Positions 660 through 35,280 of a stretch of DNA of 59,923 nt are shown one piece after another. The notes under the pieces are model-generated. The model had not been told where the DNA came from. It did not search any database and saw nothing but the letters and a program-made list of their open reading frames with translations. The stretch lies in NCBI RefSeq assembly GCF_003570715.1, contig NZ_QXXQ01000021.1, positions 1-59,923 of the forward strand. Direction: 5' to 3'. The DNA comes from Gemmobacter lutimaris. Its GTDB lineage: Bacteria; Pseudomonadota; Alphaproteobacteria; Rhodobacterales; Rhodobacteraceae. Each line of letters begins with the position of its first letter. The first letter of the stretch is position 1. Both the position numbers and the translations under genes were made by a program.

Positions 660-1316
660 CTAGATTATGTCCTTAGATTGAGCAATTATTACAGCGTGGG
701 TACGGTTATGCGCGCCGAGCTTTGTGAATATAGATCGCAAGTGCATTTTTACAGTCACTTCGCTAAGGCCCATTTCCCAAGCAATGATTTTATTGGTTTT
801 GCCTGCCGCAACCAAGGTCAGAATTCTCAGCTCCCGCGGCGTAAGCGCCGCAGGGTTACGCTTGGCATCCAGATCCTTGGCGGCGCCTTCGCCAAATCCG
901 ATTAATATGTCTGACGGCAAGAAAATCTGCCCCGAGCGCACCAGGCGCAACGCGGCAGCAAGCGATTGCAATGGAAGTGTCTTCGGAATGAACCCCCGAG
1001 CACCATTCTGGATAGCGGACACTACAAAGTCGGGTCTTACACTCCCCGAAAAAATGACAACGGCCGTCTTGGTTTCAGCCTTGATGATATCAATCACCGA
1101 CTCAAGGCCGATCATTCCAGGCATCAGCACATCCAGCATCACGATATCAAAGCCGCCAGGCGTTACAAGCGCCTCCTCCACGGCCTCCCGGCTATCCACT
1201 TTGGCGACCACGAACTCGCCCCCCGCCTGAAGCGTCGCACCAACTGCGTCACTCATCAGCCTGTGGTCGTCGGCGATCAAAATCTTGATCACATCCGTGG
1301 CTTGCATTGTTACCAT
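660..1316 (-). CDS. NarL/LuxR-family response regulator
   Basis: A two-domain DNA-binding response regulator of 218 residues, a normal length for the family. The N-terminal receiver has the acidic pair in ILIADDH near residues 13-17 and the likely phospho-acceptor Asp62 in VMLDVLMPG. The C-terminus carries a LuxR-type helix-turn-helix from about residue 155 (LTPRELRILTLVAAGKTNK then LSEVTVKMHL). The ATG at 1316 is preceded by a GGAAA at suitable spacing; a second ATG at 1307 is possible. It is divergent from the periplasmic protein and hybrid kinase at 1551-4589, which are plausible partners. An inverted repeat in the shared intergenic region is a candidate binding site. The target genes are inferred, not shown. 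Confidence 0.88.
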   Translation of the reverse strand: MVTMQATDVIKILIADDHRLMSDAVGATLQAGGEFVVAKVDSREAVEEALVTPGGFDIVMLDVLMPGMIGLESVIDIIKAETKTAVVIFSGSVRPDFVVSAIQNGARGFIPKTLPLQSLAAALRLVRSGQIFLPSDILIGFGEGAAKDLDAKRNPAALTPRELRILTLVAAGKTNKIIAWEMGLSEVTVKMHLRSIFTKLGAHNRTHAVIIAQSKDII

Positions 1317-1550: not shown

Positions 1551-2066
1551 ATGTGGTTGTCAAAGCTCAAATTTATCGGTCTGTGCCTCGCAACCTTGGT
1601 CTTCACCCAGGTCGCAGCGGACCTGCACGCTGCCACGACCGGGGACCCGGCAGATCAGGGCGTCCTTCTGCGTCTGGTCGGGCCCTCGGGTGAAGAACGC
1701 CAATTGACCATGGCCGATTTGGACGCGCTGCCACAACATAGCTTCACGACAGGCACGCTCTGGACCAGTGGCCCCAAACTGTATTCAGGACCGAGCCTGC
1801 ACGACACCTTGGCGCTTGTCGGGATGACGGACGAAAGCAGCGTCATTGCGGTTGCCGCCAATGATTATCGAGTAGACTTCAAGCCCGGCGCGATCGAATC
1901 CGATGTTCCCATCATTGCAACTCGCATTGATGGCCAACTCTATGGCCTGCGCGAGCGCGGGCCACTTTGGATAATCTATCCTTTCGACTCAAATATCCGC
2001 TTCCAGACGGAAGTGGCTTATTCGCAAAGCATCTGGCAACTGGTCGAATTGCACGTTAGTCGCTGA
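1551..2066 (+). CDS. Exported molybdopterin-fold (SUOX-like) protein
   Basis: A 171-residue protein with an N-terminal signal peptide (FIGLCLATLVFTQVAADLHA) and a small domain resembling the molybdopterin-binding fold of sulfite-oxidase-type enzymes (VRLVG-like start, LTMADLDALP, YSGPSLHDTLALVG, ending QSIWQLVELHV). Such short versions usually sit beside sensor kinases and may act as periplasmic ligand or partner proteins rather than enzymes. I see no cysteine that would serve as molybdenum ligand. The ATG at 1551 is preferred because AGGAGA lies 11 bases upstream; a TTG at 1515 would add 12 residues. The hybrid kinase begins 9 bp downstream, so the two are probably co-transcribed and functionally linked. 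Confidence 0.65.
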   Translation: MWLSKLKFIGLCLATLVFTQVAADLHAATTGDPADQGVLLRLVGPSGEERQLTMADLDALPQHSFTTGTLWTSGPKLYSGPSLHDTLALVGMTDESSVIAVAANDYRVDFKPGAIESDVPIIATRIDGQLYGLRERGPLWIIYPFDSNIRFQTEVAYSQSIWQLVELHVSR

Positions 2067-2075: not shown

Positions 2076-4589
2076 ATGAGTTTAATCAGTGCAAGTTTAT
2101 CAGAGAGCAGCAAAAAGCTCAGACGAAGATGGGTGCTCATATTCTTTGTCGTAATTCTGCCATGCTTCATACTGCTGGCATTACAGACCCTTCTCATACT
2201 GAGAGGAAGCCAGCAATTCCGTTTCCAACAACTTGATAACGGAACATGGATAGTGGGGCAGCTGGAGGTTGATCACAAGAATCTCTTGATCAGTCTTTCA
2301 TCCCTGCTGATCGAGCCACAGAAAAATGACGCCCCCCTGACGGATTTGCGCAGGGTTTTCGAGGTCTATTACAGCCGCATCGATGTGGTGCGTTCTTATA
2401 TTGATCGCACCGTCAGCGGCCATGTCGAAGACAGCACGGCGCTGAAAAAGCAGCTTTCCGCGATCACAACCAATCTGGAGGAATTGGCAAGACGCATCGA
2501 TTCCGCACAAACACTTGACCACGATGAAGTATTAAAACTTCTGATGACAGCGCGGGCCGCAACCAGCGACATACGGAACTTGGCCGTCGATGTCCTGATG
2601 ATCGAGAACGAACACGCCCGTGACGAGCGCTTGGCCCATGATGGCCTCATCGAGAAGTTCATATTTATGAACGTGATCGTGATCGGCATCCTCGGATTGA
2701 TGATCGCGCTTCTCCTTCTTGCCGAGCGCGATGCCCTGCGTCAGGCCGAGAAAATGGCACAGGTGGGAAGCATGCTCCGCAAGCTGGCCCATGCGTCGAT
2801 TGACGGTATCGTGGTCTGCGACGACGACGGCAGAATACTGGAAATCAACCCTGCGATTGAACGCATGTTTGCCTATGACCGAAACACGGCCATCGGTCAG
2901 CATGTTTCAGACCTGTTTTCGCGTCACCGGGTCGGTGGCGGCGCACAAGCAAGCAGGAGCCTTTTGCGCCGTGTCAGCGGCCTTGGGCTTATGCAGGGGT
3001 TCGCACGGCGTTCCGATGGGTCCGTCCTGCCGGTGGAGTTCTCTGTCGTTGACGAAAAGGGCATTGATGGCGATCTGGTACATATTGGTTTCATTCGTGA
3101 CATAACCCAGACCCTTGCTGAGCGTCGTCGCCTGCGGAGGGAACGGGGCAATGCTGCGGCGGAGGCAAGAGACAAGGCCCGGATCTTTTCGACCCTCAGC
3201 CATGAATTGCGCACGCCATTGCAGGTAATCGCCGCCGCACTGGCGCTCATGCGGGATCCGGCGCGAGGGGCAACCGACGAGGCCGTGCGAATAGCCGAGG
3301 CCGAAGTCGAGACGGCGCTTGACCAGATCGACCATGTGATCGGCGCTGCCCTGCCGACACCGCTGTCATCTGCAACATTGGTCAGCGGATTTGCACCAGT
3401 GCGTGAAATGACCGAGCTTTGCGACCGCATGCGCCTGCTGGCCAGCGCCCGCGGCCTTGAACTTGTGCTGAACCCGTCGGTTCCTGCCGGTCTGCGTGTA
3501 ATGGGTTCCGCAGCAGCCTTCCGGCGGGCGCTGCGCCACCTGCTGAACAACGCCATACGCTTCAGCCATACAGGACGAATAGAGGTCCGCCTGATCGCGG
3601 AAAACCCCGGCTGGCTGCGTCTTGAAGTTGAAGACGAAGGCGTCGGCATATCGGATCACGAACAAGCCCGCATTTTCGATGACTTCATCCATTTCGGCGA
3701 CCCGCTGGAAGATGGCAGCGGTCTTGGTCTGGGCCTTTCGGTCGTCCGCGATGCGGTTCGCCAGTTGAACGGCTCTCTGGGTCTGGCCAGCATCCTCGGA
3801 GAGGGTAGCGCTTTCTGGATCGAATTTCCGGCGCCGTCGCTCGATCCTGCGGAAGATGGGGCAAGCGCCCGTCTGCGGGTGCTGGTTGTGGATGACAATC
3901 CCGTCAACTGCAACATGGTCGCCCGCATGGTAACCAGCATTGGCCACATTGCCGACGAGGCAGGTTCAGGGCAGGAAGCTGTAGTGATGTCGGGGAACTG
4001 GCGTTACGATCTGATCCTGATGGACATCAACATGCCGGGTCTTGACGGGATCGCGGCCACCGCCCGCATCCGCGGCCATGGCCTGTCAAGGGAGGCCCGC
4101 ATCGTCGGCGTGACAGCCAATGTGCATTCCCGCGACATAACCCGACTGGCGGAAAGCGGTATGGCCCCCGTTTTGATGAAGCCGGTCAGTATCGAGACGC
4201 TGACGGCCCTTCTGAATGGCGATAGCCAATGGACGCCCCTGCCTGAACCGCCGCAGCCAGAGACAGACACCGTGCAGGAGACACTCGCCCTTCTCCGCGA
4301 GGTGATCGGCTCCCCGCAGGTCGATCAGATCATCGTGGAGTTTCTGGACGATTGCGGTGCGCTGTTGTCTACGGACATCCCGGCGAACCGCACCGCCGCA
4401 GAATGGCGCGATTTTGGGGCACAGGCCCACCGATGCGCCGGAATGGCAGCTATCATCGGCGCCACAAGGATGCATCAGGGCCTTTGCAGGCTGGAATTCG
4501 CCGCCGAAGAAGCCGACCCGGAAGTTGTGGCTGCGGGGATCGGCGAATGCCGGATTTATCTGTCACGTCTGCGCGGATGCCTGCTGTGA
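2076..4589 (+). CDS. Hybrid sensor histidine kinase with PAS, receiver and HPt domains
   Basis: An 837-residue membrane sensor. Transmembrane helices near residues 19-42 and 195-216 bracket a periplasmic, largely helical sensor. A PAS domain follows (about 235-345). The HisKA domain has His376 in STLSHELRTP. The ATPase domain shows the N box (LLNNAIRF), G1 (DEGVGIS) and G2 (GSGLGLGLS). A receiver carries Asp650 (LILMDINMPG), and a C-terminal HPt domain has His785 in HRCAGMAAIIGA. This is the full phosphorelay set His-Asp-His, so an external response regulator is the expected output; the LuxR-type one at 660-1316 is the nearest. The gene follows the SUOX-like gene by 9 bp and overlaps the convergent kinase gene by 34 bp. 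Confidence 0.93.
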   Translation: MSLISASLSESSKKLRRRWVLIFFVVILPCFILLALQTLLILRGSQQFRFQQLDNGTWIVGQLEVDHKNLLISLSSLLIEPQKNDAPLTDLRRVFEVYYSRIDVVRSYIDRTVSGHVEDSTALKKQLSAITTNLEELARRIDSAQTLDHDEVLKLLMTARAATSDIRNLAVDVLMIENEHARDERLAHDGLIEKFIFMNVIVIGILGLMIALLLLAERDALRQAEKMAQVGSMLRKLAHASIDGIVVCDDDGRILEINPAIERMFAYDRNTAIGQHVSDLFSRHRVGGGAQASRSLLRRVSGLGLMQGFARRSDGSVLPVEFSVVDEKGIDGDLVHIGFIRDITQTLAERRRLRRERGNAAAEARDKARIFSTLSHELRTPLQVIAAALALMRDPARGATDEAVRIAEAEVETALDQIDHVIGAALPTPLSSATLVSGFAPVREMTELCDRMRLLASARGLELVLNPSVPAGLRVMGSAAAFRRALRHLLNNAIRFSHTGRIEVRLIAENPGWLRLEVEDEGVGISDHEQARIFDDFIHFGDPLEDGSGLGLGLSVVRDAVRQLNGSLGLASILGEGSAFWIEFPAPSLDPAEDGASARLRVLVVDDNPVNCNMVARMVTSIGHIADEAGSGQEAVVMSGNWRYDLILMDINMPGLDGIAATARIRGHGLSREARIVGVTANVHSRDITRLAESGMAPVLMKPVSIETLTALLNGDSQWTPLPEPPQPETDTVQETLALLREVIGSPQVDQIIVEFLDDCGALLSTDIPANRTAAEWRDFGAQAHRCAGMAAIIGATRMHQGLCRLEFAAEEADPEVVAAGIGECRIYLSRLRGCLL

Positions 4590-6364
4590 GCAACCAGGTT
4601 CCGGCGCCCGAACAGGGAAGGCTCCGGGCCAAGCAGCTCGCTGATTTTTCTGGCCAGATGCACGCCTTTTTGCAGGGCTGCATCATAGCCGGAATTTCGG
4701 CAGACGCTGAGCAGATTTTCATCCAGATGCGCGGAATGGGCGACGACAAGCGGGCCGCCGGAAGATCGGCCACCTGTTTTTTCGCGCAGGTCAGATACAA
4801 AAGTGGCGGGGTCGAAATCAGGCATCCGCAAGTCTGTCAGGACCACTGCGGGCCATTCACCAGCGGGAATTCGTGAAAGCGCCGCCAGAAGCGCGTCAGC
4901 CCTGTGGAAACTCTGCGTCACCGCGCCCATCTCCCGCAATTGCTGTTCTATCAGATCGCGGATTGGTTCGCTGTCATCGACCACCCAGATGCGCCGGTTC
5001 CGCAGCAGATCTTGCCCTGAGTCGGGCGGAACGGCTTCCTCCATCGTCAACGACAGGCGGAATGTCGTGCCAGCACCGGGTTCGCTTACCATGGCGATCC
5101 GCCCGCCCAGAAACCGGACGAGCTGTCCGACCACGGCAAGACCCAGCCCTTGCCCCGCAACGCCGGCAGGATTGGACGATGCGCTGCGCTGGTGCGGCGC
5201 AAAGACCGCCCCCTGATCCATAGGCGGGATGCCGGGCCCGGTGTCGGAAATTACAATGGTGACCTGCCGCCGCCTGGCCTTGGCCGGGGTGGCCATGAGC
5301 GTCAGCGTGATCTCGCCTTCTTTCGTGAACTTTGCCGCATTGTCCATCAGGTTCATCAGGATCCGGAACAGGGCGGTGGGATGTGTCGTGACCCATACAG
5401 GGCAGGAACCCAGCGACAGTTTCAGATCATTCCCGTGCGCGTCGCACCGCAGGCGGTTCACCGCGGCCAGCTGCGTAAGGAACGACCGAAGCTCCACCAC
5501 TTCCAAGGCAGGCAGAGCGTCATCCAGCAGGGCGTTCAATTGCCCCAGCGCCAGATTGGCGGCCCGCAACGTCGCCTGAACATCGCCCGAAACGGTCTTT
5601 TCACGCGTCGCTTCGCCGACCATCGCCTGGACCGCCCAAAGCCCGTTGCGCAGGTCGTGGCGCCGCATGTCCGCTTCCAGCATGGTATCGAAGCCAGAAG
5701 GCCGGCGCTGGTCCGACAAATCCGACGCAAGCCGCGCCGCGTATTGGCGCAGCACTGGCATCAGCACGGCAAACTGCACACCCAATAAGATCAGGACGAC
5801 CCCCAAAGCAAAACCATGCCTGGTGCGCAGGAGCGGCGCAGGACGATCAGGGCGGACGTAAAGCAGCCAGAGCCGGGGCGACTCGCGCAACAATACAGCC
5901 TGTGTGCGAACAGGGCCGATGCCAGCCCCAACCGCCCAGGTTCCCGAACCGGACAAACTGCCCGAAAGCAGCCCATCGCGCAGCCAGAGCGGCAGTTCCG
6001 GCCGTCGTGGCGATACATCGGGGACGTTTTCAACGATGATCTCAAGGTCAGGCCCGATCATCGCAAACCATCCACCTTCTTCTGCAAGGCCACCGACCGC
6101 GGTGTGGAACGCCTGTCGCAGGCTGGCGCCTTCGGGCAGTGTGACGCGGCCGGGCAAGGGCAGGCCACCCTCGACGGCAACAGCCCCCAAAAGCGCGGTC
6201 TGGCGGATCGCCGTGTCAGCGGAAGTGCGTTCGGCCCGCAGCGCGAGCAGCCCGAAACCCGCTGCGGCCACCATCGCAGGCAGCAACAATACGGCAATCA
6301 GCCCCGGCAACATCAGGCGGTGCCCCCACTTCAAGTTCTTTCCCTGACGTCTGGACGGCCTCAT
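4556..6364 (-). CDS. Hybrid sensor histidine kinase with C-terminal receiver
   Basis: A 602-residue membrane sensor kinase. Hydrophobic helices at about 18-40 and 184-204 flank a periplasmic domain. The phospho-acceptor region has His236 in MRRHDLRNGLWAV, an H box less typical than the HELRTP type. The ATPase domain shows NLMDNAAKF, DTGPGIP and GQGLGLAVV. A C-terminal receiver has the acidic pair in VVDDSEP and Asp511 in VVLTDLRMP. There is no HPt domain. Its last 34 bp overlap the end of the convergent hybrid kinase. It is divergent from the receiver-like gene at 6662, across an intergenic region with the half of an inverted repeat also found at 1422-1448. Confidence 0.92.
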   Translation of the reverse strand: MRPSRRQGKNLKWGHRLMLPGLIAVLLLPAMVAAAGFGLLALRAERTSADTAIRQTALLGAVAVEGGLPLPGRVTLPEGASLRQAFHTAVGGLAEEGGWFAMIGPDLEIIVENVPDVSPRRPELPLWLRDGLLSGSLSGSGTWAVGAGIGPVRTQAVLLRESPRLWLLYVRPDRPAPLLRTRHGFALGVVLILLGVQFAVLMPVLRQYAARLASDLSDQRRPSGFDTMLEADMRRHDLRNGLWAVQAMVGEATREKTVSGDVQATLRAANLALGQLNALLDDALPALEVVELRSFLTQLAAVNRLRCDAHGNDLKLSLGSCPVWVTTHPTALFRILMNLMDNAAKFTKEGEITLTLMATPAKARRRQVTIVISDTGPGIPPMDQGAVFAPHQRSASSNPAGVAGQGLGLAVVGQLVRFLGGRIAMVSEPGAGTTFRLSLTMEEAVPPDSGQDLLRNRRIWVVDDSEPIRDLIEQQLREMGAVTQSFHRADALLAALSRIPAGEWPAVVLTDLRMPDFDPATFVSDLREKTGGRSSGGPLVVAHSAHLDENLLSVCRNSGYDAALQKGVHLARKISELLGPEPSLFGRRNLVAHSRHPRRRDR

Positions 6365-7496: not shown

Positions 7497-8075
7497 ATGT
7501 ATTCCTATCGGGTTTCAGCAATAGGCGCGGCGGTCAGCGCGCTGGCCATCTCCGGTTGCACCGCGCCTGTGTCGCGGCACAGCAGCTATGACGTGACTCC
7601 GGTCTATTGCGTGCAGGCGCCTCCGGGTTATGTTATCTCGCAGGACAAATGGGATCCCTATCTCGTTCCCTGCCCGGCAGTTGCAGCGGCGCCGCTCAAT
7701 CAAGTCGAAGCGGCGGCCACATCGGGTGGCGGCGGCGGAAGCAACCCCAACGACGGCACCAACAATGGCGGTGGCTCCAACAACGGGGGCGGGTCCCACA
7801 ATGGGGGGTCGCATCACGGCGGCAGCGGCAGCGCCTCGGCCTCCGCGTCCAATGGCTCGACCAGTGCCTCGGCAACCGGCGCGCAGGGCGGCAGCGCCGC
7901 CAGCTCGGCGTCGGGCGGCAGCAGTTCGTCTTCGGCCGCTGGCGGTGGCAAGAATGATGGCGCTGCGGCCGCAGGCGCGTCAGAGGGCAGCAGCTCGTCT
8001 TCGGCCACGGGCGGCGGCGGTTCGGCCTCGGCGGGCGCTTCAGGCGGTTCGACCTCGGCTTCGGTGTCCGGCTGA
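7497..8075 (+). CDS. Gly/Ser-rich lipoprotein, first gene of the fibre operon
   Basis: A 192-residue exported lipoprotein. The signal peptide ends in a lipobox-like AISGC (Cys about residue 21). A short folded-looking segment with TPVYCVQAPPGYV and VPCPAV follows. From about residue 78 the rest is low-complexity Gly, Ser, Ala and Asn (GGGSNNGGGSHNGG, then ASASNGSTSASATG repeats), which suggests an extended, flexible cell-surface tail. ATG 7497 has an AGGA six bases upstream. It precedes the HfaA-like gene by 3 bp and is probably co-transcribed with the CsgG/HfaB-type secretion gene. The family is not recognised; an accessory or anchoring role in the fibre system is inferred from position. Confidence 0.6.
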   Translation: MYSYRVSAIGAAVSALAISGCTAPVSRHSSYDVTPVYCVQAPPGYVISQDKWDPYLVPCPAVAAAPLNQVEAAATSGGGGGSNPNDGTNNGGGSNNGGGSHNGGSHHGGSGSASASASNGSTSASATGAQGGSAASSASGGSSSSSAAGGGKNDGAAAAGASEGSSSSSATGGGGSASAGASGGSTSASVSG

Positions 8076-8078
8076 TCC

Positions 8079-8624
8079 ATGCGCAGCGTTGCGATCCTCC
8101 CCCTCGTGGCTCTGGCCCTCGCCTGCGGCGCGGGCTCTTCCGCGCTGGCCCAGAACTATGCCAGCTCGGGTCAGTCGTGGTCGTCGTCCTACGGGTTTTC
8201 CTCTGCAACTGATCGCAGCCTGCGCCTGCAACAGGCGCAGGTCGTGCGCTCAGCCGAACAAGGGGCAGACCCGACCTCGGTCTACAACACGACCAATTAT
8301 TACGACAATCGCTCCGGCTACATCGAAACCAATGCCACGGGCGATGTGACCGGCGATCAGCAGATCGGCGACCAGATTGGCCAGCAGACCTATTCGGTTG
8401 GCTCGTTGAACACCGGCAGCAACACGATAGAGGTGCACGGCAGCGGCAACGTGATCGACGCGGTCAATGCTGCGCGCACCAACGGGTGTGTCGATGGCTC
8501 CATCCGTGAGGTCAATACCACAACGGGCGGCACCGCCTGGGCCACGACTGACGGGTCGGCAAGCGCCGCAAGCGAGGTTTCCACCTCTGCCGCGACGGCC
8601 GCTGTCGATCCGATCTGCCAGTGA
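8079..8624 (+). CDS. HfaA/curlin-like exported protein
   Basis: A 181-residue exported protein with signal peptide (LPLVALALACGAGSSALA-Q). The mature part is rich in Gly, Ser, Asn and Thr and contains Asn/Gly strand-like repeats such as TGDQQIGDQIGQQTYSVG and SLNTGSNTIEVHGSGNVID, resembling small amyloid-like subunits such as Caulobacter HfaA or curlins. It lies immediately upstream of the CsgG/HfaB-type gene, the same order as hfaA-hfaB of Caulobacter. Two cysteines in the C-terminal part may form a disulfide. The HfaA assignment rests on composition and synteny, so it is tentative; it may be the nucleator or minor subunit of the fibre. Confidence 0.5.
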   Translation: MRSVAILPLVALALACGAGSSALAQNYASSGQSWSSSYGFSSATDRSLRLQQAQVVRSAEQGADPTSVYNTTNYYDNRSGYIETNATGDVTGDQQIGDQIGQQTYSVGSLNTGSNTIEVHGSGNVIDAVNAARTNGCVDGSIREVNTTTGGTAWATTDGSASAASEVSTSAATAAVDPICQ

Positions 8625-8636
8625 CTGGATCGGCCG

Positions 8637-10037
8637 GTGTCGCGCAACCCCCTCCTCGCCCTGCTGCTTTCGACGTGTCTTGCGGGATGCCTTCAGGCGC
8701 CTGCCGGTTCGCGCACGCCGTCAGGTGTGGATGCGCCTTTGGTCAAGGGGCCGCCAATCACGGACATCACTACCGAATTCGACGATGCACTGGCCTGCCT
8801 GAACGGCGCAGTGCCGGAGGTGGTGACCTTTGCTGTCGGTCAGATCGCCGACAATACCGGCAAAGAACAATACGCCGATGGCGGCACCGGCAAACTGGTA
8901 ACCCAGGGCGCGGGCGACATGGTGCAATCGGCTCTCTTCCGCGCCGGGCTGAGTGTCGTGAACCGCCGCGATCCCAATATCATCTTGGCCGAGAACAACT
9001 GGGGCATCCGCAACGTCAAGACCCAGCGCGCGGCGGATCTGTTCATTTCGGGCTCCATCAACAGTCTTGACTACATCCCCGGTGGCGGGGCCGAGGTCGA
9101 AATCGCGGGCATCGGCCCGCGTTATCGGCAGAACCGTATCCTCGTGGGGCTGGATCTCGCCCTGACATCGGCCAGCACGGGCGAAATCATCGCCAATGTG
9201 CCGCTGCAAAAGCAGCTTTTCGCTGAAGAGATGGGCTTTTCGGTCGGGCGCTTCTTCGGTGACACGCTGGTTTCGGCGGAAGCCGGTGGGATGGAGCGCG
9301 AGGCACTGCATTTCACGCTGCGCCAGATGCTGAGCTACGCGACCTTCGACCTTCTGGCGCAGGTGCTGCCCACATCGCAGGTGACAGAGTGCGGGCAGAA
9401 GATCAGCACCTTCTCGGCGGTGCCGAACGGCGTGCGGGGCAGCAAGGCGCGGGCGATGAAAGGCGTGATCGCCTCGGCGAGGATCGCGGCGCAACAGCAG
9501 CAGCAGGCGGAAGAGGCGCTGGCCGCCTCGGTCGCCGGTGGTAGTGCGCCGGCACCGGGGGCGGGGGCCCAGGCGCCGGGCGCGCCGGCCGGGGCGGGGG
9601 CCCCGAAGGCCACTGCGGCCCGGCCCGCACCCCCGCTGTCCGACGAGGCGCGCAAGCTTGCCAATTCGGCGACTTCTTATGCGGCACGGGCAATTTCCTC
9701 GGCCGATGGGGTGCTGAACGCCAAGACGATCGAAGAGGGCGAGGCCGCAGCGTCCGAGGCCGTGCGCTACATGACACTGGCGATTCAGGCGCTGCGCGCC
9801 GGCGCCACTGCCGGGCTTACCGGCCCCGAAGGCGATGCGGCGGCGACGGTGGTGGAACAGGCGATCAATGCCACCGAAGCGGCACAGAAGCTGATCGAAA
9901 AGCGAAAGGCCAAGGCGGCCGAGGGTGCGGCAACGAAAGATGCCAACCCGGCTCCGGTGCTGGCCCCCGCGCCGCAGGAAACCTCGCCCGACCCGGCGAA
10001 AGCCGATGACAAACAACTGGGAGGTGCCAAGCCATGA
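8637..10037 (+). CDS. CsgG/HfaB-family outer-membrane secretion lipoprotein
   Basis: A 466-residue lipoprotein with lipobox STCLAGC (Cys18) and a CsgG/HfaB-type domain up to about residue 255: VVTFAVGQIADNTG, a GAGDMVQSALFRAG helix, SGSINSLDY, IGPRYRQNRILVGLDLALTSASTGEI and a closing ECGQ. CsgG forms the outer-membrane pore that secretes curli; HfaB plays this role for holdfast anchors. Unlike CsgG (about 280 residues), this protein has a C-terminal extension of some 200 residues, rich in Ala, Pro and Gln, with a helical segment (SEAVRYMTLAIQALRAG). The start is GTG at 8637, 13 bp after the previous gene. It is the likely export channel for the neighbouring exported proteins. Confidence 0.85.
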   Translation: MSRNPLLALLLSTCLAGCLQAPAGSRTPSGVDAPLVKGPPITDITTEFDDALACLNGAVPEVVTFAVGQIADNTGKEQYADGGTGKLVTQGAGDMVQSALFRAGLSVVNRRDPNIILAENNWGIRNVKTQRAADLFISGSINSLDYIPGGGAEVEIAGIGPRYRQNRILVGLDLALTSASTGEIIANVPLQKQLFAEEMGFSVGRFFGDTLVSAEAGGMEREALHFTLRQMLSYATFDLLAQVLPTSQVTECGQKISTFSAVPNGVRGSKARAMKGVIASARIAAQQQQQAEEALAASVAGGSAPAPGAGAQAPGAPAGAGAPKATAARPAPPLSDEARKLANSATSYAARAISSADGVLNAKTIEEGEAAASEAVRYMTLAIQALRAGATAGLTGPEGDAAATVVEQAINATEAAQKLIEKRKAKAAEGAATKDANPAPVLAPAPQETSPDPAKADDKQLGGAKP

Positions 10038-10168
10038 CGCGCCCGCGCGCCCCCGACCCGAGTTCTGTTCCAGGCCCGACAGCCCGGAACGGAAGACAGC
10101 CGGCCCTCAAAACCCGGAAATCAACGCCTCCCAGAGGGAGGGAGGCAGGACAAACAGGAAAACCAGAG

Positions 10169-11089
10169 ATGAAAAAACTCCTCGCCACCACGGCTCTTGC
10201 AGTGATCGCCATGTCCGGCGCCGCCTCGGCCCAGTCGGTTCTGGAGCGTGTGCTTAGCAGCATCAACGTCGACAACACCAACATGCTGCCGGTAACCGGC
10301 ACCTTCGCCAACATCGCCGAAAACATCGCGGTGCTTCAGCCGACGACTTCTACGGTGTACACTAAAACTGATGGCTCCGTGATTTCGGCGGCCGACTATG
10401 AGGCCCTCAAGGCCTCAGAGGCCTACGAAACCTTCGCGACCGGATCGCTGTATTACAATTCGACGACTGGCGAGTATGTCACGAAGGCTCAATACGACGC
10501 TATGACAACTGCAGCGGCTGCCGGCTTTGCCGCAACCACTGCGGCTGTCTACCTCAAAGCTGATGGCACTTATGTCACCACGACGCCTACGACTACCTAC
10601 AGCACCTATACGGCGAAGGTCATCGACGGTCCGGCACAGATCCTGAACAACATCGACGGTTCGATTACCAACACGATGACCGGCATTCAGGATGCGACCG
10701 CATCGGTTGGCACCGACGTGCTGGCGTTCAGCGAAGTGCAGGTAGATATCGGCGATCTGTCGACCACCGTTCTGGGTGCGGTCAACACCGGCGACATCAC
10801 CCTGGGCGTGAACCAGGATGTGTCCGAGGCGATCTCGGGCACCTCGTCGGCGGTTTCGGCCTCGATCAACCAGCTGGGCGGTGTGACCGACCAGACCGCG
10901 CTGGTGCTGAACGTCGCCTCGAACGCAACCGACGTGATCGGTTCGGTGAACAACTCGTTCACCTCGCTCAACGGCTCCATCGGCAATGTGGCGACCACCG
11001 TTCTGGGCGCGGTCAACACCGGCACCATCACCTCGGGCATCAATGCCGCGGTCACGGGTGTGCAGTCGGGCATCATCGGCACCAACTGA
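10169..11089 (+). CDS. Putative fibre/adhesin subunit, paralog 1
   Basis: A 306-residue exported protein. A clear signal peptide (MKKLLATTALAVIAMSGAASA) is followed at once by QSVLERVL and then LPVTGTFANIAENI, both conserved in the next genes. A variable middle rich in Thr, Tyr and Ala precedes a conserved C-terminal half in which TTVLGAVNTG occurs at about residues 199 and 276, a 77-residue period. The DNA of the C-terminal half is nearly identical to that of paralog 2. No enzymatic motif or cysteine is seen. Composition and position behind the CsgG/HfaB channel suggest a secreted, beta-rich fibre subunit. The family is not known to me. The ATG at 10169 fits the signal peptide; 10038-10168 holds no gene. 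Confidence 0.75.
   Translation: MKKLLATTALAVIAMSGAASAQSVLERVLSSINVDNTNMLPVTGTFANIAENIAVLQPTTSTVYTKTDGSVISAADYEALKASEAYETFATGSLYYNSTTGEYVTKAQYDAMTTAAAAGFAATTAAVYLKADGTYVTTTPTTTYSTYTAKVIDGPAQILNNIDGSITNTMTGIQDATASVGTDVLAFSEVQVDIGDLSTTVLGAVNTGDITLGVNQDVSEAISGTSSAVSASINQLGGVTDQTALVLNVASNATDVIGSVNNSFTSLNGSIGNVATTVLGAVNTGTITSGINAAVTGVQSGIIGTN
10745..11058 (+). repeat. Direct repeat shared with 11809-12122
   Basis: This 314-bp segment of paralog 1 aligns without gaps to 11809-12122 of paralog 2, with only scattered and mainly third-position differences, while the upstream halves of the two genes are unrelated at DNA level. It encodes the two TTVLGAVNTG motifs and the stretch between them. The pattern indicates a recent duplication or ongoing gene conversion, and it is a substrate for recombination that would fuse the two genes. 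Confidence 0.85.
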
Positions 11090-11169
11090 TCATCTGATCC
11101 CCGTTCTCCGCCGGTTTTGCCGGCGGAGATCACGCATTAAAGGCCTGTTTGGCATCTCAAGGCGTATCC

Positions 11170-12153
11170 ATGAAAGCTCTAGCAGCAATCTCGGTCATTC
11201 TGACACTTGGTCAGGCGGGTGCGGCCTCGGCGCAATCGGTGCTAGAGCGTGTGCTGGGCGCCATCACGGACGACGGGATGTTGCCGGTGACCGGCATCTT
11301 CGCCAATATCGCAGGGAACATCAGCGGCCCGACGGTCCCCGGCACCATGACCGAGGGCGGCTGGACCGATGGTGACGGCGCCAGCATCACCGACCAGCAG
11401 ATGCAGGATGCGTTCAACGCGGCGCAGGCGACATTCGTTTCGGACTACAACACCGCGCATTACATCGACTCGTATTCTTACGAGGATCCCTTCGACCCAT
11501 GGATGTCCTTCACCCTGTATCGTTTCTGGATACGTCCGGCCACTGACGAATATCATGGCTACTACACGCTTGCAGAGGCGCAGGCCGCGCAGGGCGTCGC
11601 GGCAGCCGCCGCCCTTGCCGCCGACGCCCTGTTGTCGGATTTCACCACCTGGCAGGCCGCGACCTACAGCTATACCGAAGGCAGTGAGACCAGCCCGAGG
11701 ACGCTGGTCAGTGCCATAGACGGCTCGATCTCGAACGCCATGACCGGCATCACATCCGCGACAGCCGCTGTGGGCGCCGATGTCCTCGCCCACAGCGACG
11801 TGCAGATCGATATCGGCGATCTTTCGACCACCGTTCTGGGCGCGGTCAACACCGGCGACATGACGCTGGGCGTGAATCAGGACGTCTCGGAAGCCATCTC
11901 GGGCACCTCGTCGGCGGTTTCCTCGTCGATCGCGCAGTTGGGCGGCGTGACCGACCAGACCGCGCTGGTGCTGAACGTGGCCTCGAACGCGACCGACGTC
12001 ATCGGTTCGGTGAACAACTCGTTCGCTTCGCTCAACGGCTCCATCGGCAACGTGGCCACCACCGTTCTGGGCGCCGTCAACACCGGCACCATCATCTCGG
12101 GCATCAATGCCGCGGTCACGGGCACGCAGTCCGGGATCACCGGCATGAACTGA
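11170..12153 (+). CDS. Putative fibre/adhesin subunit, paralog 2
   Basis: A 327-residue exported protein, closest to paralog 1. The signal peptide (ISVILTLGQAGAASA) is followed by QSVLERVLGAI and LPVTGIFANIAGNI. The middle, with several Tyr and Trp residues and an Ala-rich helix, is unlike that of paralog 1. The last third is almost the same, with TTVLGAVNTG at about residues 220 and 297, again 77 apart. The sharp change from divergent middle to near-identical end suggests duplication with domain swapping or gene conversion. The start at 11170 places the signal peptide at the N-terminus. Function is inferred from the operon only. Confidence 0.75.
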   Translation: MKALAAISVILTLGQAGAASAQSVLERVLGAITDDGMLPVTGIFANIAGNISGPTVPGTMTEGGWTDGDGASITDQQMQDAFNAAQATFVSDYNTAHYIDSYSYEDPFDPWMSFTLYRFWIRPATDEYHGYYTLAEAQAAQGVAAAAALAADALLSDFTTWQAATYSYTEGSETSPRTLVSAIDGSISNAMTGITSATAAVGADVLAHSDVQIDIGDLSTTVLGAVNTGDMTLGVNQDVSEAISGTSSAVSSSIAQLGGVTDQTALVLNVASNATDVIGSVNNSFASLNGSIGNVATTVLGAVNTGTIISGINAAVTGTQSGITGMN

Positions 12154-12206
12154 GGTTTCATTCCTTGCAGGAGCACCTCGGCCAGAGTCGCAGGTGGATA
12201 AAGACG

Positions 12207-12851
12207 ATGCCACAGAAGCTGCAACAGGAACTGCAATGGGGGCGGTGTTTTCCGGCACTGGCCCTTGTTGCATTTTGCACCCCAGCCAGCGCCGGGAGCA
12301 TTCTGGAGCGCGTGCTGGCGGACATCGCCGCCGATGCGCCCGTGGCGGGACAGACCGATGTGATGATGAACATCGCCGAAGTCGTGAATCCGGCGACGGA
12401 CCCCAGCATTCTGAACAGGATCGACGGCTCCACCACGCTGGTATCGGGCGATCTGATGCTGCCTGCGGCGATTGGCTATAACACGGCGGCAAGCACAACC
12501 GCCGATCTGGTCTGGCGCGAGATCGACACGCAGACCATTGCATCGTCCAATACCGGCACAATCGAGGTTGCAAAGATCCTGCCCATAGCCCCGGTCGCAG
12601 TGCCTGAGGATATCGGGCAGGCGGGCACAGCGGCCGCGACCGGCGCAGCGCAGCCGGGTGGATATGCCGTGCTTCTGGGCAATCTGGCCGTGGCCACGAC
12701 CACTGTGATCGGCTCCATCAGCCTGCGCACCGAAAACATCGCGAACAGCGGCGCCACGGTCGTCCAGCAAGCCACCAGTTCCATCGGCACCATCAACAGC
12801 GGCGGGATTACCTTGAAGATAACGCAGGACAGTGAAGGCGTGGCACAATGA
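12207..12851 (+). CDS. Putative fibre/adhesin subunit, paralog 3 (divergent)
   Basis: An exported protein of about 214 residues and the most divergent of the four. After a signal peptide (CFPALALVAFCTPASA) it has GSILERVLADI, matching the QSVLERVL motif of paralogs 1 and 2, then MMNIAEVV in place of FANIAENI. The C-terminal half keeps a degenerate repeat (LAVATTTVIGSISL and later SSIGTINSGGITLKI), without exact TTVLGAVNTG copies. The ATG at 12207 is chosen because it gives a normal signal peptide; an ATG-like start at 12165 would add a 14-residue hydrophilic leader. It overlaps paralog 4 by 4 bp (ATGA), so the two are coupled. It may be a minor subunit or cap; this is inference. Confidence 0.65.
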   Translation: MPQKLQQELQWGRCFPALALVAFCTPASAGSILERVLADIAADAPVAGQTDVMMNIAEVVNPATDPSILNRIDGSTTLVSGDLMLPAAIGYNTAASTTADLVWREIDTQTIASSNTGTIEVAKILPIAPVAVPEDIGQAGTAAATGAAQPGGYAVLLGNLAVATTTVIGSISLRTENIANSGATVVQQATSSIGTINSGGITLKITQDSEGVAQ

Positions 12852-13759
12852 GGTCTCGGTTCTGGCGGCTTAGCATCGGAACCGCACTGGCCCTTACGGC
12901 GGCACAGGGCGGGCAGGCCACCACGCTGGACCGCGTTCTGGGTCTGGTCAGCGCGATGGGTCCGTCACCGCTGTCGGGACTTTTCGTCAACATGGCTGAA
13001 ACCATCGGCACCACGATCGACACCCCCCGCACCCTGCGCGCGGGCGACCGGGTGATCGTCGGTTATGCCAATGACGGAAGCCCGGTGCTTGCGCAGGCCG
13101 ACAGAAGCGGCGTCACCGTCACCCCCGAGATGCAGGCGGCAATGACCAGCGGGCTGTCCGCCGGGCTGTATCCGCCGGGAAGCGCGCTTTACGCCCTGCC
13201 GCCGGCCGGACAGCTTTCGCTGTTTGAGGAAGCGCAGGACGCCCAGGAGCTTGCCTTCGCGCGCGAACTGATGATGACGCGGATCGACGGTTCGGTGCAT
13301 GAGGTGCTTAGCGGCATCGTGCCGTCGGAAATGGCGGCAATCTACGTCATCGCCCCGGAGATCAGGCTGGGCGGCGTCATGGGCCGGGTGGAGACCACGG
13401 TGCTGGGAGCCGTGAATACAGGAGAGATTGTCTCCAGTCTCGCGGTGGGAGTTGATGCTGCCTCAGGCTATGGCGCACAGGTTGATCTGGCCATGGCGGG
13501 GATCAGTGTCGGAGCCAATCAGGCGCTGGACCGGGCCATCGCGGAAAGCAGCCGCGCCAGCAGTTTCCGCATGACCCAACTGGGTGGCTCGGCCGATGTG
13601 CCGGTGGCCATGCTGAACATGGCCAGCGCCGCGCAGGACATCACGGGCGCGGTTGAAATGCAACTGACAGCGCGCGGTCTGGCCGGTGGCGACACCGTAA
13701 CCACCGTTCTGGGGGCTGTGAACGCCGGTCTGATGCGTTTGGTCGCCCAATCGCGCTGA
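12848..13759 (+). CDS. Putative fibre/adhesin subunit, paralog 4
   Basis: A 303-residue exported protein with signal peptide (LSIGTALALTAAQGGQA). TTLDRVLGLV and SGLFVNMAETI match the leader motifs of the other paralogs. The C-terminal half carries TTVLGAVNTG at about residue 183 and TTVLGAVNAG at about 285, with QLGGSADVPVAMLNMAS between them, parallel to QLGGVTDQTALVLNVAS of paralogs 1 and 2. The spacing of the two motifs is 102 residues rather than 77. Its ATG overlaps the end of paralog 3. It is the last of the tandem set; the RTX gene starts 39 bp downstream, close enough for the same transcript. Confidence 0.68.
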   Translation: MRSRFWRLSIGTALALTAAQGGQATTLDRVLGLVSAMGPSPLSGLFVNMAETIGTTIDTPRTLRAGDRVIVGYANDGSPVLAQADRSGVTVTPEMQAAMTSGLSAGLYPPGSALYALPPAGQLSLFEEAQDAQELAFARELMMTRIDGSVHEVLSGIVPSEMAAIYVIAPEIRLGGVMGRVETTVLGAVNTGEIVSSLAVGVDAASGYGAQVDLAMAGISVGANQALDRAIAESSRASSFRMTQLGGSADVPVAMLNMASAAQDITGAVEMQLTARGLAGGDTVTTVLGAVNAGLMRLVAQSR

Positions 13760-13798: not shown

Positions 13799-16700
13799 AT
13801 GACCCTCGATCACCGGTTCCGCTTTCCAGCTTTGCTGCCGCTGACCGCAGCGGCCAACCTGTTCAACGGCACGTCGGCCGACGATTCCATTGACGGTCTT
13901 GCGGGCAATGACACCTTGCACGGAGATGCCGGAGCAGATGCGCTGATGGGGGGGGCGGGCTACGATCTGGTTCAGGGCGGCGCAGGCGACGACCTGCTGG
14001 CAGGCGGCGCAGGTAACGATACGCTGGATGGCGGCGACGGCTTCGATCTGGTGAGCTATGCCGAGTCGGAAACCGGCGTCTGGATTTCGCTGAGCCGGCG
14101 CAGCGCCCAGGCGCAAAGCGATCAGGGCCGCGATGTGCTGATCGGAATCGAAGGGATCATCGGCAGCACCGCTGACGACCATCTGCGCGGCGATGCCGGG
14201 GCAAACCTGCTGGTGGGCAACGACGGCAACGATCTGCTGGAAGGTGGCAACGGCGACGACACGCTCTGGGGTGGCGAGGGCAATGACACGATCACCGGCG
14301 GCAGCGGCACCGATACCGCGACTTATGCCGATATTTCGGCTGATCTGACCATCGACCTGGGCATCAGCAAGGCGCAGGAAACCGGCGCGGGGCGGGACAT
14401 CCTCAGCGGGATCGAGGTGTTGATCGGCGGTGCTGGCAATGACCGTTTGACCGGCGGGCGCGGCAACGAAAGGCTGGAGGGCGGTGCCGGCAATGACTCG
14501 CTGGATGGTGCGGCAGGCGACAACACGCTGATGGGCGGTCTGGGCGACGATGTCTACCGTATCCGCGCGGCCAGCGAGGTGGTGTTCGAACTGCCCGATC
14601 AGGGCCGCGACACCATTCTCAGCTCGACCAGCCTCACGCTGATTTCCGAGGTCGAGAATCTGGAGCTTCTGGGCATCCGGTCATTGAAGGGCACCGGAAA
14701 CACGCTGGACAATACGATTACCGGCAACGGATCGGCGAATGTGCTGTCAGGGCTTGAGGGCAACGACAGCCTTTATGGCGGCGGCGGCCTGGACAAGCTT
14801 TATGGTGGCGATGGGGACGATCTGCTGGTCATCGGCGCGGGCAGCGATCTGGTGGATGGCGGGGATGGCGCCGACACAGCGTCCTTTGCCGGTGAAACCG
14901 CAGGCGTGCGGGTGGATCTGTCTGCGGCCACTGTGGTTGTGGGCACCGCCAGTGGCAATGACACGCTGCGCGGCATCGAACACCTGATCGGCGGCGACGG
15001 TGGCGATACACTGACGGGCGATGCGGAGGGCAACAGCCTTGACGGTGGGGCTGGTGCCGACAGTCTGGCGGGCGGCCTCGGGGCCGACAGCCTTTACGGT
15101 GGAGGCGGCAACGATACGCTGACCGGCGGCGCGGGCAACGACAGTCTCGCAGGAGGCGCGGGCTTCGACGTAGCGGTGTTCGCCGATGGGTATGTGGAAG
15201 GCTGTGTGAGCTGGAACGCTACGGCCGACAGCTTTGTGGTGACCACGTCGGAAGGCACGGACCAGGTGACCGAGGTGGAGCGGTTCTCCTTCGCGGGCAC
15301 GCTGTTTGGTGCCGACGAGTTCCGCGCGACCCGCCTGACCGATGGCGCCGACAACTTCACCGGCACGACAGGGAACGACCGGGTGCTGGGCTTCGCGGGC
15401 AGTGACACGATCAGCGGGCTGGCGGGCGATGACAGCATCGACAGCGGTGCCGGCGATGACAGCCTGAGCGGTGGCTCCGGCAACGACAGCCTGTCCGGCG
15501 GCAACGGCGACGATACGCTGGATGCGGGCGGCGGCAACGATCTGCTCTATGGCGGCGACGGTGACGACCGGCTGATCGCAGGCGCGGGCAACAGCACCGT
15601 GATGGGCGGCGCTGGCACCGATACCGTGGTGTTCGACTTCGCACTGGCACAGGCGAGCTTTGCCTATGGCGATGGTCTTTTCACCGTGCTGGGGCCGAAT
15701 GGCATGACCCACGTCGGCGAGGTCGAGAATTTCAGCTTCTCTGACGCGCCTTCCGTCAATCGCCGCCCGCTGCTGACGGTGCCGGACAAGACCGCGCTCC
15801 GCGTGGTCGAAGGCACCGATGGCGCCCCGACAAGCGTGGTGGTGCATCTGACACTTGAAACGGCGGCAACTGCCACGGAAAGTCTGAGCTGGAACGTGAC
15901 CTCCGGATCAGCCGGGCTGACGGCAGGCGATTTTGCAACAGCAGGGGGCGTTGCCCTGACCGATCTGCCCGCCGGCACCATCACCTTCGAAATCGGCGAG
16001 ACCAGCGCGACGATCACCCTGTGGCTCTTGCCCGACAGCCAGCCGGAAGAGGAGGAGAGCTTTACGCTCAACCTCAACGCCGCAGACCCCCGTCTTCTGC
16101 TGACGCAGAACCGGATCACGGTGGTGATCGCCAATGACGACGCCACGCTGCTTGGCCCCGGCGCCGACCTGTTTACCGGCACAGCCGTCGATGACCGCAC
16201 CAACGGCGGCGCAGGCAAGGATACGCTGCGCGGCATGGGGGGCAATGACTACCTGCTGGGCGGCGATGGCAATGACAGCATTGATGGCGGTGACGGCGAC
16301 GATACCGTGGTGGGTGGCACCGGGAATGACACGCTGATCGGCGGCAAAGGCAACGATACACTGACCTATGCGCAGAGCGCGGGCAATGTCACCGTCAACC
16401 TGTCGCGCAGCGCGGCGCAAAGCACCGGCGTCGATGGCCGCGACCGCATCAACGGGTTCGAAACGCTGATCGGCGGGCTTGGCAACGACAGCCTCACCGG
16501 CACCAGCGCGGCCAACCGGATCGAAGGCGGGCAAGGCGCTGACACGCTGGACGGAAATGGCGCAGACGATACGCTGGTCGGGGGAGGCGGTGACGATGTG
16601 TTCATCGTCGATTCCGTCTTGGATCAGGTGATCGAGGCGGCGGACGGCGGCAAAGACAGGGTTCTGAGCGAAATCAGCTGGGTGCTGGGTGACAATCTGG

Positions 16701-18148
16701 AAGAGCTGGAACTCACCGGCGCAAAGCTGATCGACGGCACCGGAAACGCGCTGGACAACCTGATCATCGGCTCGCGCCGCGACAACCTGCTGTCGGGCGG
16801 CGCGGGCGATGACACGCTTCAGGGCGAAGATGGTCGTGACAGGCTTGCGGGCGATGCGGACGACGACCTGCTTTATGGCGGCAAGGGCGATGACACGCTG
16901 GATGGCGGGGCGGGAACGGATACGCTGGATGGCGGCGAGGGCAATGACACCTACCTCATCAACGATGCCGACGACATCATTCTGGAGGCGCTGGACTCCG
17001 GACGCGACGAGGTGCGCACCACGCTGCAAACCCTGACGCTGGCCGCCAATGTCGAGGATCTGGTCTATCTGGGCAACGGCGGGCTGACCGGCACGGGCAA
17101 TGGGCTGGCCAATAGCATGGACGGCGGCGAAGGCGATGACACGCTTTATGGCGGCACGGGCAACGACACGTTGCGTGGTTACGCCGGAAACGACCGTCTG
17201 GAGGGCGGCACAGAGGCCGACCTGCTTTATGGCGGCGACGATGCCGACCGGCTGTATGGCGGGGCGGGCAATGACGCGCTGCTCGGTGATACAGGTGATG
17301 ACAGCCTTGCTGGTGGCGCGGGCGATGACCGGCTGTTCGGCGGCACGGGCAATGACACGCTGATCGCGGATGGCGGCACTGATACCCTGCTGGGTGGCAG
17401 CGGCAGCGATTCCTTCGTTCTGTCCGTGAGCGACGCGGTGGCCGGCATAGCCGATCTGACAACAGGCGACACGGTGCAGGTGGCATCCGGCGCCATAGCG
17501 GCGGCGGTCGAGATCACGGCATTTGTCGCAACTTCGGCCACGGTGAACGATGGCACATGTGCCATTTCCACGCGCGCCAGCGGCGGAACGATCGACATGA
17601 CGCTTGCGACGGGCACATCGGGTTTCACGCTGACGGGGCTTGCCGGCAACGACACTTTGTCCGGTAGCACAGCCTCTGACAATCTGTTCGGCGGGTCCGG
17701 GAATGATGTTCTTGTCGCAACTGGCGGCAGAGACATCCTGACAGGCGGCGCCGGAAGCGATACATTCGTCTTTGCCTCGTCAGGGCATCATCACGTTATC
17801 ACTGACTACTCGGCGCTTCAAAACGACAGGGTGGATCTTTCCGCCCTTGGGTTGTCGCTAACGACGGTTGGCGCGGCCAAAACCGTGACGGCGCAGGAAT
17901 TGTATCAACTGTCAGGCGATCTGAGCGACGCAAGCGATGCGGCGGTTGTTTCCGACGCATTGAACAACAGCGGAACGATATGGACATCTGCAAATGCGAC
18001 GGCCTGGGTTCTGGCACAGGACAACACGGGCAGCAGCCTGTTTCGATGGGATGAAGTCTCTGCAAGCGACGGGGCCAGCGCGAGCGAACTCACAATGGTC
18101 GTGCGTCTCGAAAATGTGGCCATGAGTGATCTGTGGCTTCTGCTCTGA
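13799..18148 (+). CDS. RTX calcium-binding protein with Calx-beta domain
   Basis: A 1449-residue secreted-type protein without an N-terminal signal peptide. Glycine/aspartate nonapeptide repeats (GGxGxDxLx; for example GGAGNDTLDGGDG) occur in many blocks from about residue 25 to 1220, binding calcium as parallel beta-rolls. At about residues 658-780 a Calx-beta domain interrupts them (ALRVVEGTDG to ITVVIANDD). The last 150 residues have a final RTX block and a C-terminal region as expected for type I secretion signals. No toxin or protease domain is visible, so an adhesin or matrix protein is more likely than a cytolysin. A good ribosome site (AAAGGA) precedes the ATG. No type I exporter is encoded in this window. 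Confidence 0.9.
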   Translation: MTLDHRFRFPALLPLTAAANLFNGTSADDSIDGLAGNDTLHGDAGADALMGGAGYDLVQGGAGDDLLAGGAGNDTLDGGDGFDLVSYAESETGVWISLSRRSAQAQSDQGRDVLIGIEGIIGSTADDHLRGDAGANLLVGNDGNDLLEGGNGDDTLWGGEGNDTITGGSGTDTATYADISADLTIDLGISKAQETGAGRDILSGIEVLIGGAGNDRLTGGRGNERLEGGAGNDSLDGAAGDNTLMGGLGDDVYRIRAASEVVFELPDQGRDTILSSTSLTLISEVENLELLGIRSLKGTGNTLDNTITGNGSANVLSGLEGNDSLYGGGGLDKLYGGDGDDLLVIGAGSDLVDGGDGADTASFAGETAGVRVDLSAATVVVGTASGNDTLRGIEHLIGGDGGDTLTGDAEGNSLDGGAGADSLAGGLGADSLYGGGGNDTLTGGAGNDSLAGGAGFDVAVFADGYVEGCVSWNATADSFVVTTSEGTDQVTEVERFSFAGTLFGADEFRATRLTDGADNFTGTTGNDRVLGFAGSDTISGLAGDDSIDSGAGDDSLSGGSGNDSLSGGNGDDTLDAGGGNDLLYGGDGDDRLIAGAGNSTVMGGAGTDTVVFDFALAQASFAYGDGLFTVLGPNGMTHVGEVENFSFSDAPSVNRRPLLTVPDKTALRVVEGTDGAPTSVVVHLTLETAATATESLSWNVTSGSAGLTAGDFATAGGVALTDLPAGTITFEIGETSATITLWLLPDSQPEEEESFTLNLNAADPRLLLTQNRITVVIANDDATLLGPGADLFTGTAVDDRTNGGAGKDTLRGMGGNDYLLGGDGNDSIDGGDGDDTVVGGTGNDTLIGGKGNDTLTYAQSAGNVTVNLSRSAAQSTGVDGRDRINGFETLIGGLGNDSLTGTSAANRIEGGQGADTLDGNGADDTLVGGGGDDVFIVDSVLDQVIEAADGGKDRVLSEISWVLGDNLEELELTGAKLIDGTGNALDNLIIGSRRDNLLSGGAGDDTLQGEDGRDRLAGDADDDLLYGGKGDDTLDGGAGTDTLDGGEGNDTYLINDADDIILEALDSGRDEVRTTLQTLTLAANVEDLVYLGNGGLTGTGNGLANSMDGGEGDDTLYGGTGNDTLRGYAGNDRLEGGTEADLLYGGDDADRLYGGAGNDALLGDTGDDSLAGGAGDDRLFGGTGNDTLIADGGTDTLLGGSGSDSFVLSVSDAVAGIADLTTGDTVQVASGAIAAAVEITAFVATSATVNDGTCAISTRASGGTIDMTLATGTSGFTLTGLAGNDTLSGSTASDNLFGGSGNDVLVATGGRDILTGGAGSDTFVFASSGHHHVITDYSALQNDRVDLSALGLSLTTVGAAKTVTAQELYQLSGDLSDASDAAVVSDALNNSGTIWTSANATAWVLAQDNTGSSLFRWDEVSASDGASASELTMVVRLENVAMSDLWLLL

Positions 18149-35146: not shown

Positions 35147-35280
35147 TTTATATGAGAGAGATTCTGTCAATAGCGCACGCTTGATCACTCGACCGTTGGA
35201 TCACGGGCGTCATGCTGGGCTTGTAGTGCCATTTGCCGATTGGGCGATCCATGCACCCTATGTTGTTGCAGTCAACCGAC

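Follow-up and report, generated by a model that had tools for sequence, protein, structure and literature searches.

The 59,923-nucleotide stretch of Gemmobacter lutimaris DNA analysed here (contig NZ_QXXQ01000021.1, hereafter the window) carries, between positions 7497 and 13759, a seven-gene operon that we consider fairly likely to serve CsgG-type secretion for display at the cell surface. CsgG channels are known for curli and have been proposed for the holdfast anchor. Judged by the features we tested, the operon is a member of neither the curli nor the HfaABD system, though it is close to both in plan. Its exported paralogs, which we call D (p1-p4), consist of two copies of one repeat, and in the p1/p2 class the first copy holds an insert that is rich in tyrosine and apparently exchangeable. 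This architecture goes beyond the earlier sequence-only reading of the window.

All seven open reading frames (ORFs) of the operon were confirmed on the + strand, with gaps of 3, 12, 131, 80 and 53 bp in operon order and a 4-bp overlap in the final pair (p3/p4), in agreement with the single orientation and tight spacing described previously. The protein at the HfaA position is called A. Lipoboxes of the lipoprotein and the channel, and Sec signal peptides of the linked exported partners, were recognised by eye. The start of p3 is taken as the ATG at 12207, the longest ORF there being 228 aa. The operon and its two variable inserts are laid out as follows.

7497..8075, + strand: Gly/Ser/Ala-rich lipoprotein, 192 aa (lipobox ISGC, by eye)
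8079..8624, + strand: A protein at the HfaA position, 181 aa, with a single IGxxNTG repeat and two C-terminal Cys (profile family upstream of the channel; repeat common to D)
8637..10037, + strand: predicted CsgG/HfaB-type outer-membrane lipoprotein (the channel), 466 aa, with a C-terminal extension of ~200 aa (Pfam CsgG; lipobox LAGC, by eye)
10169..11089, + strand: D paralog p1, major class, 306 aa (D profile, class tree, alignment)
10325..10627, + strand: variable insert of p1, about residues 53-153, 11 Tyr (borders from the alignment)
11170..12153, + strand: D paralog p2, major class, 327 aa (D profile, class tree, alignment)
11320..11688, + strand: variable insert of p2, about residues 51-173, 10 Tyr (without detectable similarity to the p1 insert)
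12207..12851, + strand: D paralog p3, 214 aa, without a long insert (groups with p3 of Gemmobacter lanyuensis, support 99)
12848..13759, + strand: D paralog p4, of the minor class, 303 aa; its middle region can be aligned (one of 7 rows in its class, support 98)

The assignment of the operon to the CsgG/HfaB type, already made from the sequence alone, is borne out by the channel protein, which scores 48.4 bits against Pfam CsgG (cut-off 20.8), matches PDB chains of CsgG (E 4e-4) and is, at E 0.001, the only protein of the assembly to match Pfam CsgG. Against NCBIfam HfaB it reaches 85.9 bits (75.3 in the genome search), far below the cut-off of 300. In a CsgG-domain tree of 94 rows, built by a quick method with Shimodaira-Hasegawa-like approximate likelihood ratio support, unrooted and carrying a long-branch warning, the window group forms a branch of its own (99) and classic HfaB a separate one (97); the channel clade therefore goes with its own partner family. 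Channels of a further kind, which we call O-type, make up a third branch (91, not starred), and those of an N-type form one group except for a Vibrio row falling inside it. The curli-type rows lie outside; they were named by eye from curlin-like neighbours, in a tree that does not contain E. coli CsgG. Large Brevundimonas and Caulobacter phages (records H31-H39) also encode CsgG/HfaB-type proteins, whose identity to a part of the window channel is ~29-31%.

The four exported proteins of 214-327 residues that follow the channel had been described as related, and they are indeed one family, because a profile that leaves out both the window and its nearest relative, the G. lanyuensis locus L086, finds all four (E 3.6e-51 for p1, 4e-44 for p2, 1.1e-13 for the 214-aa p3 and 2.6e-29 for p4). 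Nor is the arrangement due to chance, because the same four D classes recur in the four D genes of L086. In the class tree, p4 falls in a class of seven rows (98), six of which fill 99 or 100 of the 100 columns of the middle-region alignment, and p3 of the window and of G. lanyuensis form a separate class (99). The four window genes are therefore not equal copies: two belong to the variable major class and two are fast-evolving and specialised. Another locus, L091, also carries four D genes, the third of which lies on a long branch and does not group with p3.

Neither D nor A could be assigned to a Pfam or NCBIfam family (77 D and 53 A proteins). Among the 77 D members, five families were each matched by a single member (best E 7e-4), and no enzyme family appeared. 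Mature D is free of Cys in 71 of the 77, with Lys at 0.6% and Arg at 1.3%. PDB matches of the D and A profiles (SecM, fragments of the SCL-interrupting locus, and a phage portal) were short or weak and were taken as chance.

D is internally duplicated. Although comparison of the whole D profile with itself by HHalign reported nothing, its two halves align at 97.6% (E 3.5e-12), with reversed controls at 0.5 and 0.6; the repeat consensus is NxAxN..GSI..TTxxGAVNTGxI. A loose form of this motif occurs at least twice in 48 of the 77 D proteins, once in 21 and not at all in 8, against two copies in 1/77 after shuffling. A carries one repeat of the same type: it aligns with D at 52% and 43%, where reversed controls give 0.3 and 0.6. 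Across the 14 rows of the p1/p2 class, a core of 201-213 aa is interrupted within repeat 1 by an insert of 0-118 aa (up to 123 aa if the border is drawn a little wider).

Insert and core differ sharply. Between p1 and p2 of the window the core is 78% identical and the insert 13%, and over 11 proteins tyrosine makes up 76 of 1073 insert residues (7.1%) compared with 6 of 2042 core residues (0.3%). The inserts of the two window paralogs show nothing detectable in common (z 0.4), whereas the window p2 insert resembles that of Tabrizicola p2 (z 7.4), the window p1 insert that of Gemmobacter p2 (z 10.1), and the Tabrizicola p2 insert that of p2 from a reactor metagenome-assembled genome (z 24.5). 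With Wp, Gp, Tp and Rp standing for the window, Gemmobacter, Tabrizicola and reactor-genome paralogs, the core tree places Rp1 with Rp2 (99/99) and Wp1 with Wp2 (93/87), and the approximately unbiased test on the core data rejects both Tp2+Rp2 (p 0.007) and Tp1+Rp1 (p 0.001), pairs that were picked after the data had been viewed. On these comparisons, inserts and cores have different histories.

A similar contrast is seen between two strains of Celeribacter baekdonensis. B30 and DSM 27375 share 96.4% DNA identity over 2,896 bp reaching ~157 bp into the D gene. Identity is 92.7% across 450 bp of the 3' core and 96.0% across a later stretch of 6,928 bp. Their core proteins are 92% identical; their inserts differ, with a faint similarity of z 4. 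The B30 insert instead resembles that of Pseudotabrizicola (z 14-15) and the DSM 27375 insert that of L095 (z 28), all these Celeribacter scores being based on 150 shuffles. Both the insert and the region downstream have changed, so that a well-conserved core is flanked by changed sequence on either side. We interpret this pattern as the replacement of cassettes while selection acts on the core, the inserts apparently being exchanged between paralogs and between strains.

The association of D with this channel type recurs well beyond Gemmobacter. The channel alignment was used for one scan of contigs from GTDB genomes. The best 80 of 96 related stretches were kept, and they include loci from Rhodobacterales, Aureimonas, Polaromonas, Methylophilales, many Acinetobacter and one Desulforhopalus; gene calls came from a simple ORF caller, and four loci (L089, L094, L128 and L163) repeat genomes already in the set. 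The counts are not independent, because ~28 of the 80 loci are from Acinetobacter or its family. An iterated D profile run against all 6,228 ORFs of 104 loci gave 101 matches at E 1e-4, to which the 18 loci of other CsgG types contributed none. Every D match in the survey loci stands behind the channel and none elsewhere in those loci, and D follows the channel in 69 of the 70 loci with at least 1.2 kb of sequence after it (L115 has no D). The link to this type of CsgG gene, for which the earlier reading had proposed a neighbourhood survey, thus holds across the set, and the refuting outcome named in that reading, an enzyme family unconnected with CsgG genes, was not seen. Its emphasis on four copies does not hold: 55 of the 70 loci have a single D, 9 have two, 3 have three, 2 have four and 1 has none. 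A lies upstream of the channel in 67/71 loci under a strict distance rule; three of the four failures have an A ORF that overlaps a channel ORF of excessive length, and in the fourth, the Desulforhopalus locus L165, A is downstream. A was counted at E < 1e-20 with D removed, because iterated A searches took up some D proteins.

The D system is patchy in distribution. The channel was matched in 13 of 295 genomes of the family, six of them (own included) at E < 1e-79, and D in 3 of 149 with a single query. The D profile matched 7 of 390 Rhodobacterales genomes (own included; one weak, 5.6e-5) and was not found there in G854, the sole other listed genome of the genus. At the level of the phylum, 6 of 398 genomes matched, namely its own, G451 and four weak ones. 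Weak matches in G595, G1243 and G890 were not counted as real D, and those in G1135 and G1288 were rejected as proteins that look VirB5-type by eye, which we take to be conjugation proteins caught via the signal peptide. In the plasmid collection, pDY25-D of Pacificitalea manganoxidans carries a regulator, small exported protein, kinase, lipoprotein, A, channel and one D; this D is distant, and the p1 protein itself had no match in that collection at E 0.001.

We are now able to propose a mechanism for the operon. The CsgG/HfaB-type lipoprotein would, like its family, oligomerise into an outer-membrane channel, and Sec-exported D, nearly without Cys and basic residues, would cross it unfolded. 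We are reasonably confident of these opening steps, and export of D, and probably A, through the CsgG-type channel is the best reading of family membership and linkage. The constant cores of p1 and p2 may then co-assemble, leaving their inserts as an exposed, tyrosine-rich and variable face; such co-assembly would explain why inserts are exchanged but the cores of one genome tend to remain matched. In the same scheme p4 would be a specialised minor subunit, and A, with its single repeat copy, may anchor or nucleate assembly at the channel, as is thought for CsgB and HfaA. Assembly at the surface with variable display has, in our estimate, slightly better than even prospects, and true fibres somewhat less than even ones; secretion, assembly, insert exposure and fibre formation are all inferred.

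Several observations weigh against this scheme. Assembly rests on analogy, because D has no profile link to curlin-like proteins or to HfaD. Two near-terminal Cys occur in 81 of 86 A proteins, a feature as compatible with a folded accessory in the periplasm as with a secreted nucleator. The insert pattern is seen in the p1/p2 class only, and Acinetobacter D proteins are without such an insert. In these trees only one genus clearly shows cores matched within a genome: Tp1+Tp2 and Gp1+Gp2 are absent from the best core tree, though not rejected (p 0.33 each), and the Wp1 core is closer by identity to Gp1 (91%) than to Wp2. Several inserts keep faint similarity (z 3-6), and fast divergence in place therefore rivals exchange as an explanation; these similarities favour a certain amount of such divergence. 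In Celeribacter the change is not confined to the insert, since behind the D gene DSM 27375 has ~1.8 kb with a sulfotransferase gene that B30 is without. Finally, D also occurs as an orphan: G931 has an extra D pair on another contig, with a small exported signalling-type protein nearby by eye, and G917 one D on a short contig, both with a matching channel in the genome, while the sole channel-profile match in G451, which has a D-like gene, is of another type.

The nearest competing explanation is a divergent holdfast-anchor system, in which D would tether a polysaccharide adhesin to the outer membrane instead of forming fibres by itself. The resemblance to HfaABD of Caulobacter crescentus is one of plan: the A-B-D order is identical, with a CsgG-type channel, a small exported A and a larger exported partner downstream, and HfaA and HfaD are described as requiring HfaB for their arrival at the surface (PMC6707917). 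The NCBIfam HfaB score of the channel favours this explanation, as does a weak match between A and classic HfaA (HHalign 12.7% and colinear across 131 columns, against 0.1-0.2 for the reversed controls, with an HfaA profile of three proteins). On the same side, an Acinetobacter baumannii H-NS paper names poly-N-acetylglucosamine (PNAG) and a CsgG/HfaB-family protein as both H-NS-repressed (PMC8446060), though neither name is in the main text of the source it cites for this (PMC7910304). Against it stand the HfaB cut-off, which the channel does not reach, and the separate channel branches. D was rejected as an HfaD homologue (HHalign 0.3% against a profile of only two HfaD proteins, with no hidden Markov model crossover at E 1e-4). 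The window system differs further in its one to four D copies, in the variable inserts of one D class and, in Rhodobacterales, in a linked LuxR/kinase module and lipoprotein gene. We consider a holdfast anchor unlikely.

Curli with unusual subunits would likewise account for the CsgG domain and the tandem subunit genes, and curli also share with the window system a repeat common to the putative major and anchor proteins. Curlin repeats, however, are short and number four or more (PMC10192328), whereas D has two long repeats plus, in p1/p2, the insert. No curlin family was matched by the 77 D and 53 A proteins, no CsgE or CsgF match was found among the seven operon proteins, and A was rejected as a CsgF homologue (0.3% against three CsgF-like proteins). 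D was also rejected as a curlin homologue: its comparison with curlin-like proteins gave at most 16.3%, over the first 33 aligned positions only, mostly signal peptide. We therefore regard ordinary curli as very improbable. The earlier description of A as HfaA/curlin-like is weakly supported (12.7% for HfaA, at most 1.5% for curlin-like proteins); the proposal that the paralogs replace HfaD or curlins agrees with their position in the operon but not with any detectable homology. It remains quite improbable, too, that D is a soluble or matrix-released variable protein, such as a bacteriocin-like factor or a decoy for phage receptors, passing through the channel without anchored assembly. An arms race would fit both the change of insert between strains and the patchy distribution among Rhodobacterales; the co-conserved A with the same repeat suggests assembly instead, and no immunity partner was recognised by eye among the called neighbours, for which no dedicated search was made.

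Two other operon types share the CsgG-type channel and an A-like protein with the window system, and window A aligns with O-type A at 90.6%; they differ from it in their channel-tree branches and in large partners without profile similarity to D. In O-type loci (L009, L073-L075 and L085) the A-like protein is upstream, the channel has a long C-terminus that is OmpA-like by eye, and in Variovorax (L009) the downstream partner is very long and carries an S-layer family annotation. In N-type operons (L076-L083) a channel of ~280 aa precedes an exported protein, ~250-584 aa long, that has TAVGNNxSI or a similar sequence at its end and reaches 6.1% against the D profile, in the signal-peptide region only; several tandem units occur in one genome (G309, with five HfaB matches). 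The earlier reading knew of no described system with the composition of the window operon, and we found none in our searches of the openly licensed literature.

Genes of a signalling module lie upstream of the operon, with a large repeat protein directly behind it. Related loci add genes for possible modifying enzymes.

660..1316, - strand: LuxR-type response regulator, receiver plus GerE (Pfam GerE 71.5 bits, Response_reg 64.8 bits)
1551..2066, + strand: small exported protein of the linked signalling module (relatives in other loci; no Pfam match)
2253..4589, + strand: PAS hybrid histidine kinase (Pfam PAS, HisKA, HATPase_c, Response_reg)
4556..6313, - strand: second histidine kinase/receiver, with an uncertain link to the operon (Pfam HATPase_c, Response_reg)
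13799..18148, + strand: RTX repeat protein, 1449 aa, 39 bp behind p4, a possible operon member (HemolysinCabind 438.7 bits)
L098 6592-8832 (Tropicibacter), L099 12658-13974 (Celeribacter), L165 7412-9529 (Desulforhopalus): sulfotransferase-domain proteins
L096 12462-13844, L165 5798-7246: related RimK-type ATP-grasp genes, their proteins 29.5% identical, next to the D operons in distant bacteria (2/104 loci)

From their linkage, the LuxR-type regulator, the small exported protein and the hybrid kinase may control the operon. Relatives of the regulator (E 1e-10) occur in 20 of 38 non-redundant Rhodobacterales-type loci, a raw count given without a background rate and over many loci cut by contig ends. 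The small exported protein, searched with a profile from a clean seed set (the non-relative in L096 left out), has relatives in nine loci including the window (the others being L008, L091 with two, L097, L099, L100, L103, L106 and L112). A lipoprotein precedes A, by a simple rule, in 35/42 Rhodobacterales-type loci (32/38 deduplicated) and in 0/44 others; this is a lower bound, L088 having one that the rule overlooked, and the assignment follows record titles (L095 is titled Gammaproteobacteria). By motif search, 3 of 104 loci (the window, L086 and L127) have an RTX protein behind the last D; the window and L086 copies are 51.5% identical over 1397 columns, with no low-complexity filter, and an ABC/HlyD exporter pair lies ahead of the operon in L127 and L116. 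The three sulfotransferase genes, in or adjoining the operon, are likewise from 3/104 loci, and their proteins have tetratricopeptide repeats above the Pfam cut-offs in L098 and L165 only.

Elsewhere, the window holds type IV secretion (conjugation) genes (36684-53908) and, by eye only, a small gene pair resembling an AbrB-type antitoxin and a PIN-type toxin (33369-33981) and fragments resembling insertion-sequence transposases (34893-36276). The contig may be a plasmid, because plasmids of Gemmobacter aquarius and G. fulvus share ~80% DNA identity with a 22-kb query, covering 76% and 68% of it.

Overall, the window operon adds another CsgG substrate system, patchy but wide in its occurrence (Alphaproteobacteria, Betaproteobacteria, Acinetobacter and Desulforhopalus), whose substrate protein families are unnamed by Pfam and NCBIfam. 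At its fullest, the system may be a surface array in which a constant, self-assembling scaffold exported by a CsgG-type channel carries an exchangeable tyrosine-rich cassette, with matching of paralog cores and strain-to-strain replacement of cassettes; in some lineages the display would be modified by a sulfotransferase or an ATP-grasp enzyme encoded next to the subunits. We offer this combined picture tentatively and think it somewhat unlikely in full. If the insert is displayed, the system would be a natural secreted, self-assembling scaffold with a swappable payload, and would provide a direct test of the tolerance of CsgG channels for variable cargo. More generally, a fast-changing tyrosine-rich insert on a constant scaffold suggests a surface coat with an exchangeable exposed part.

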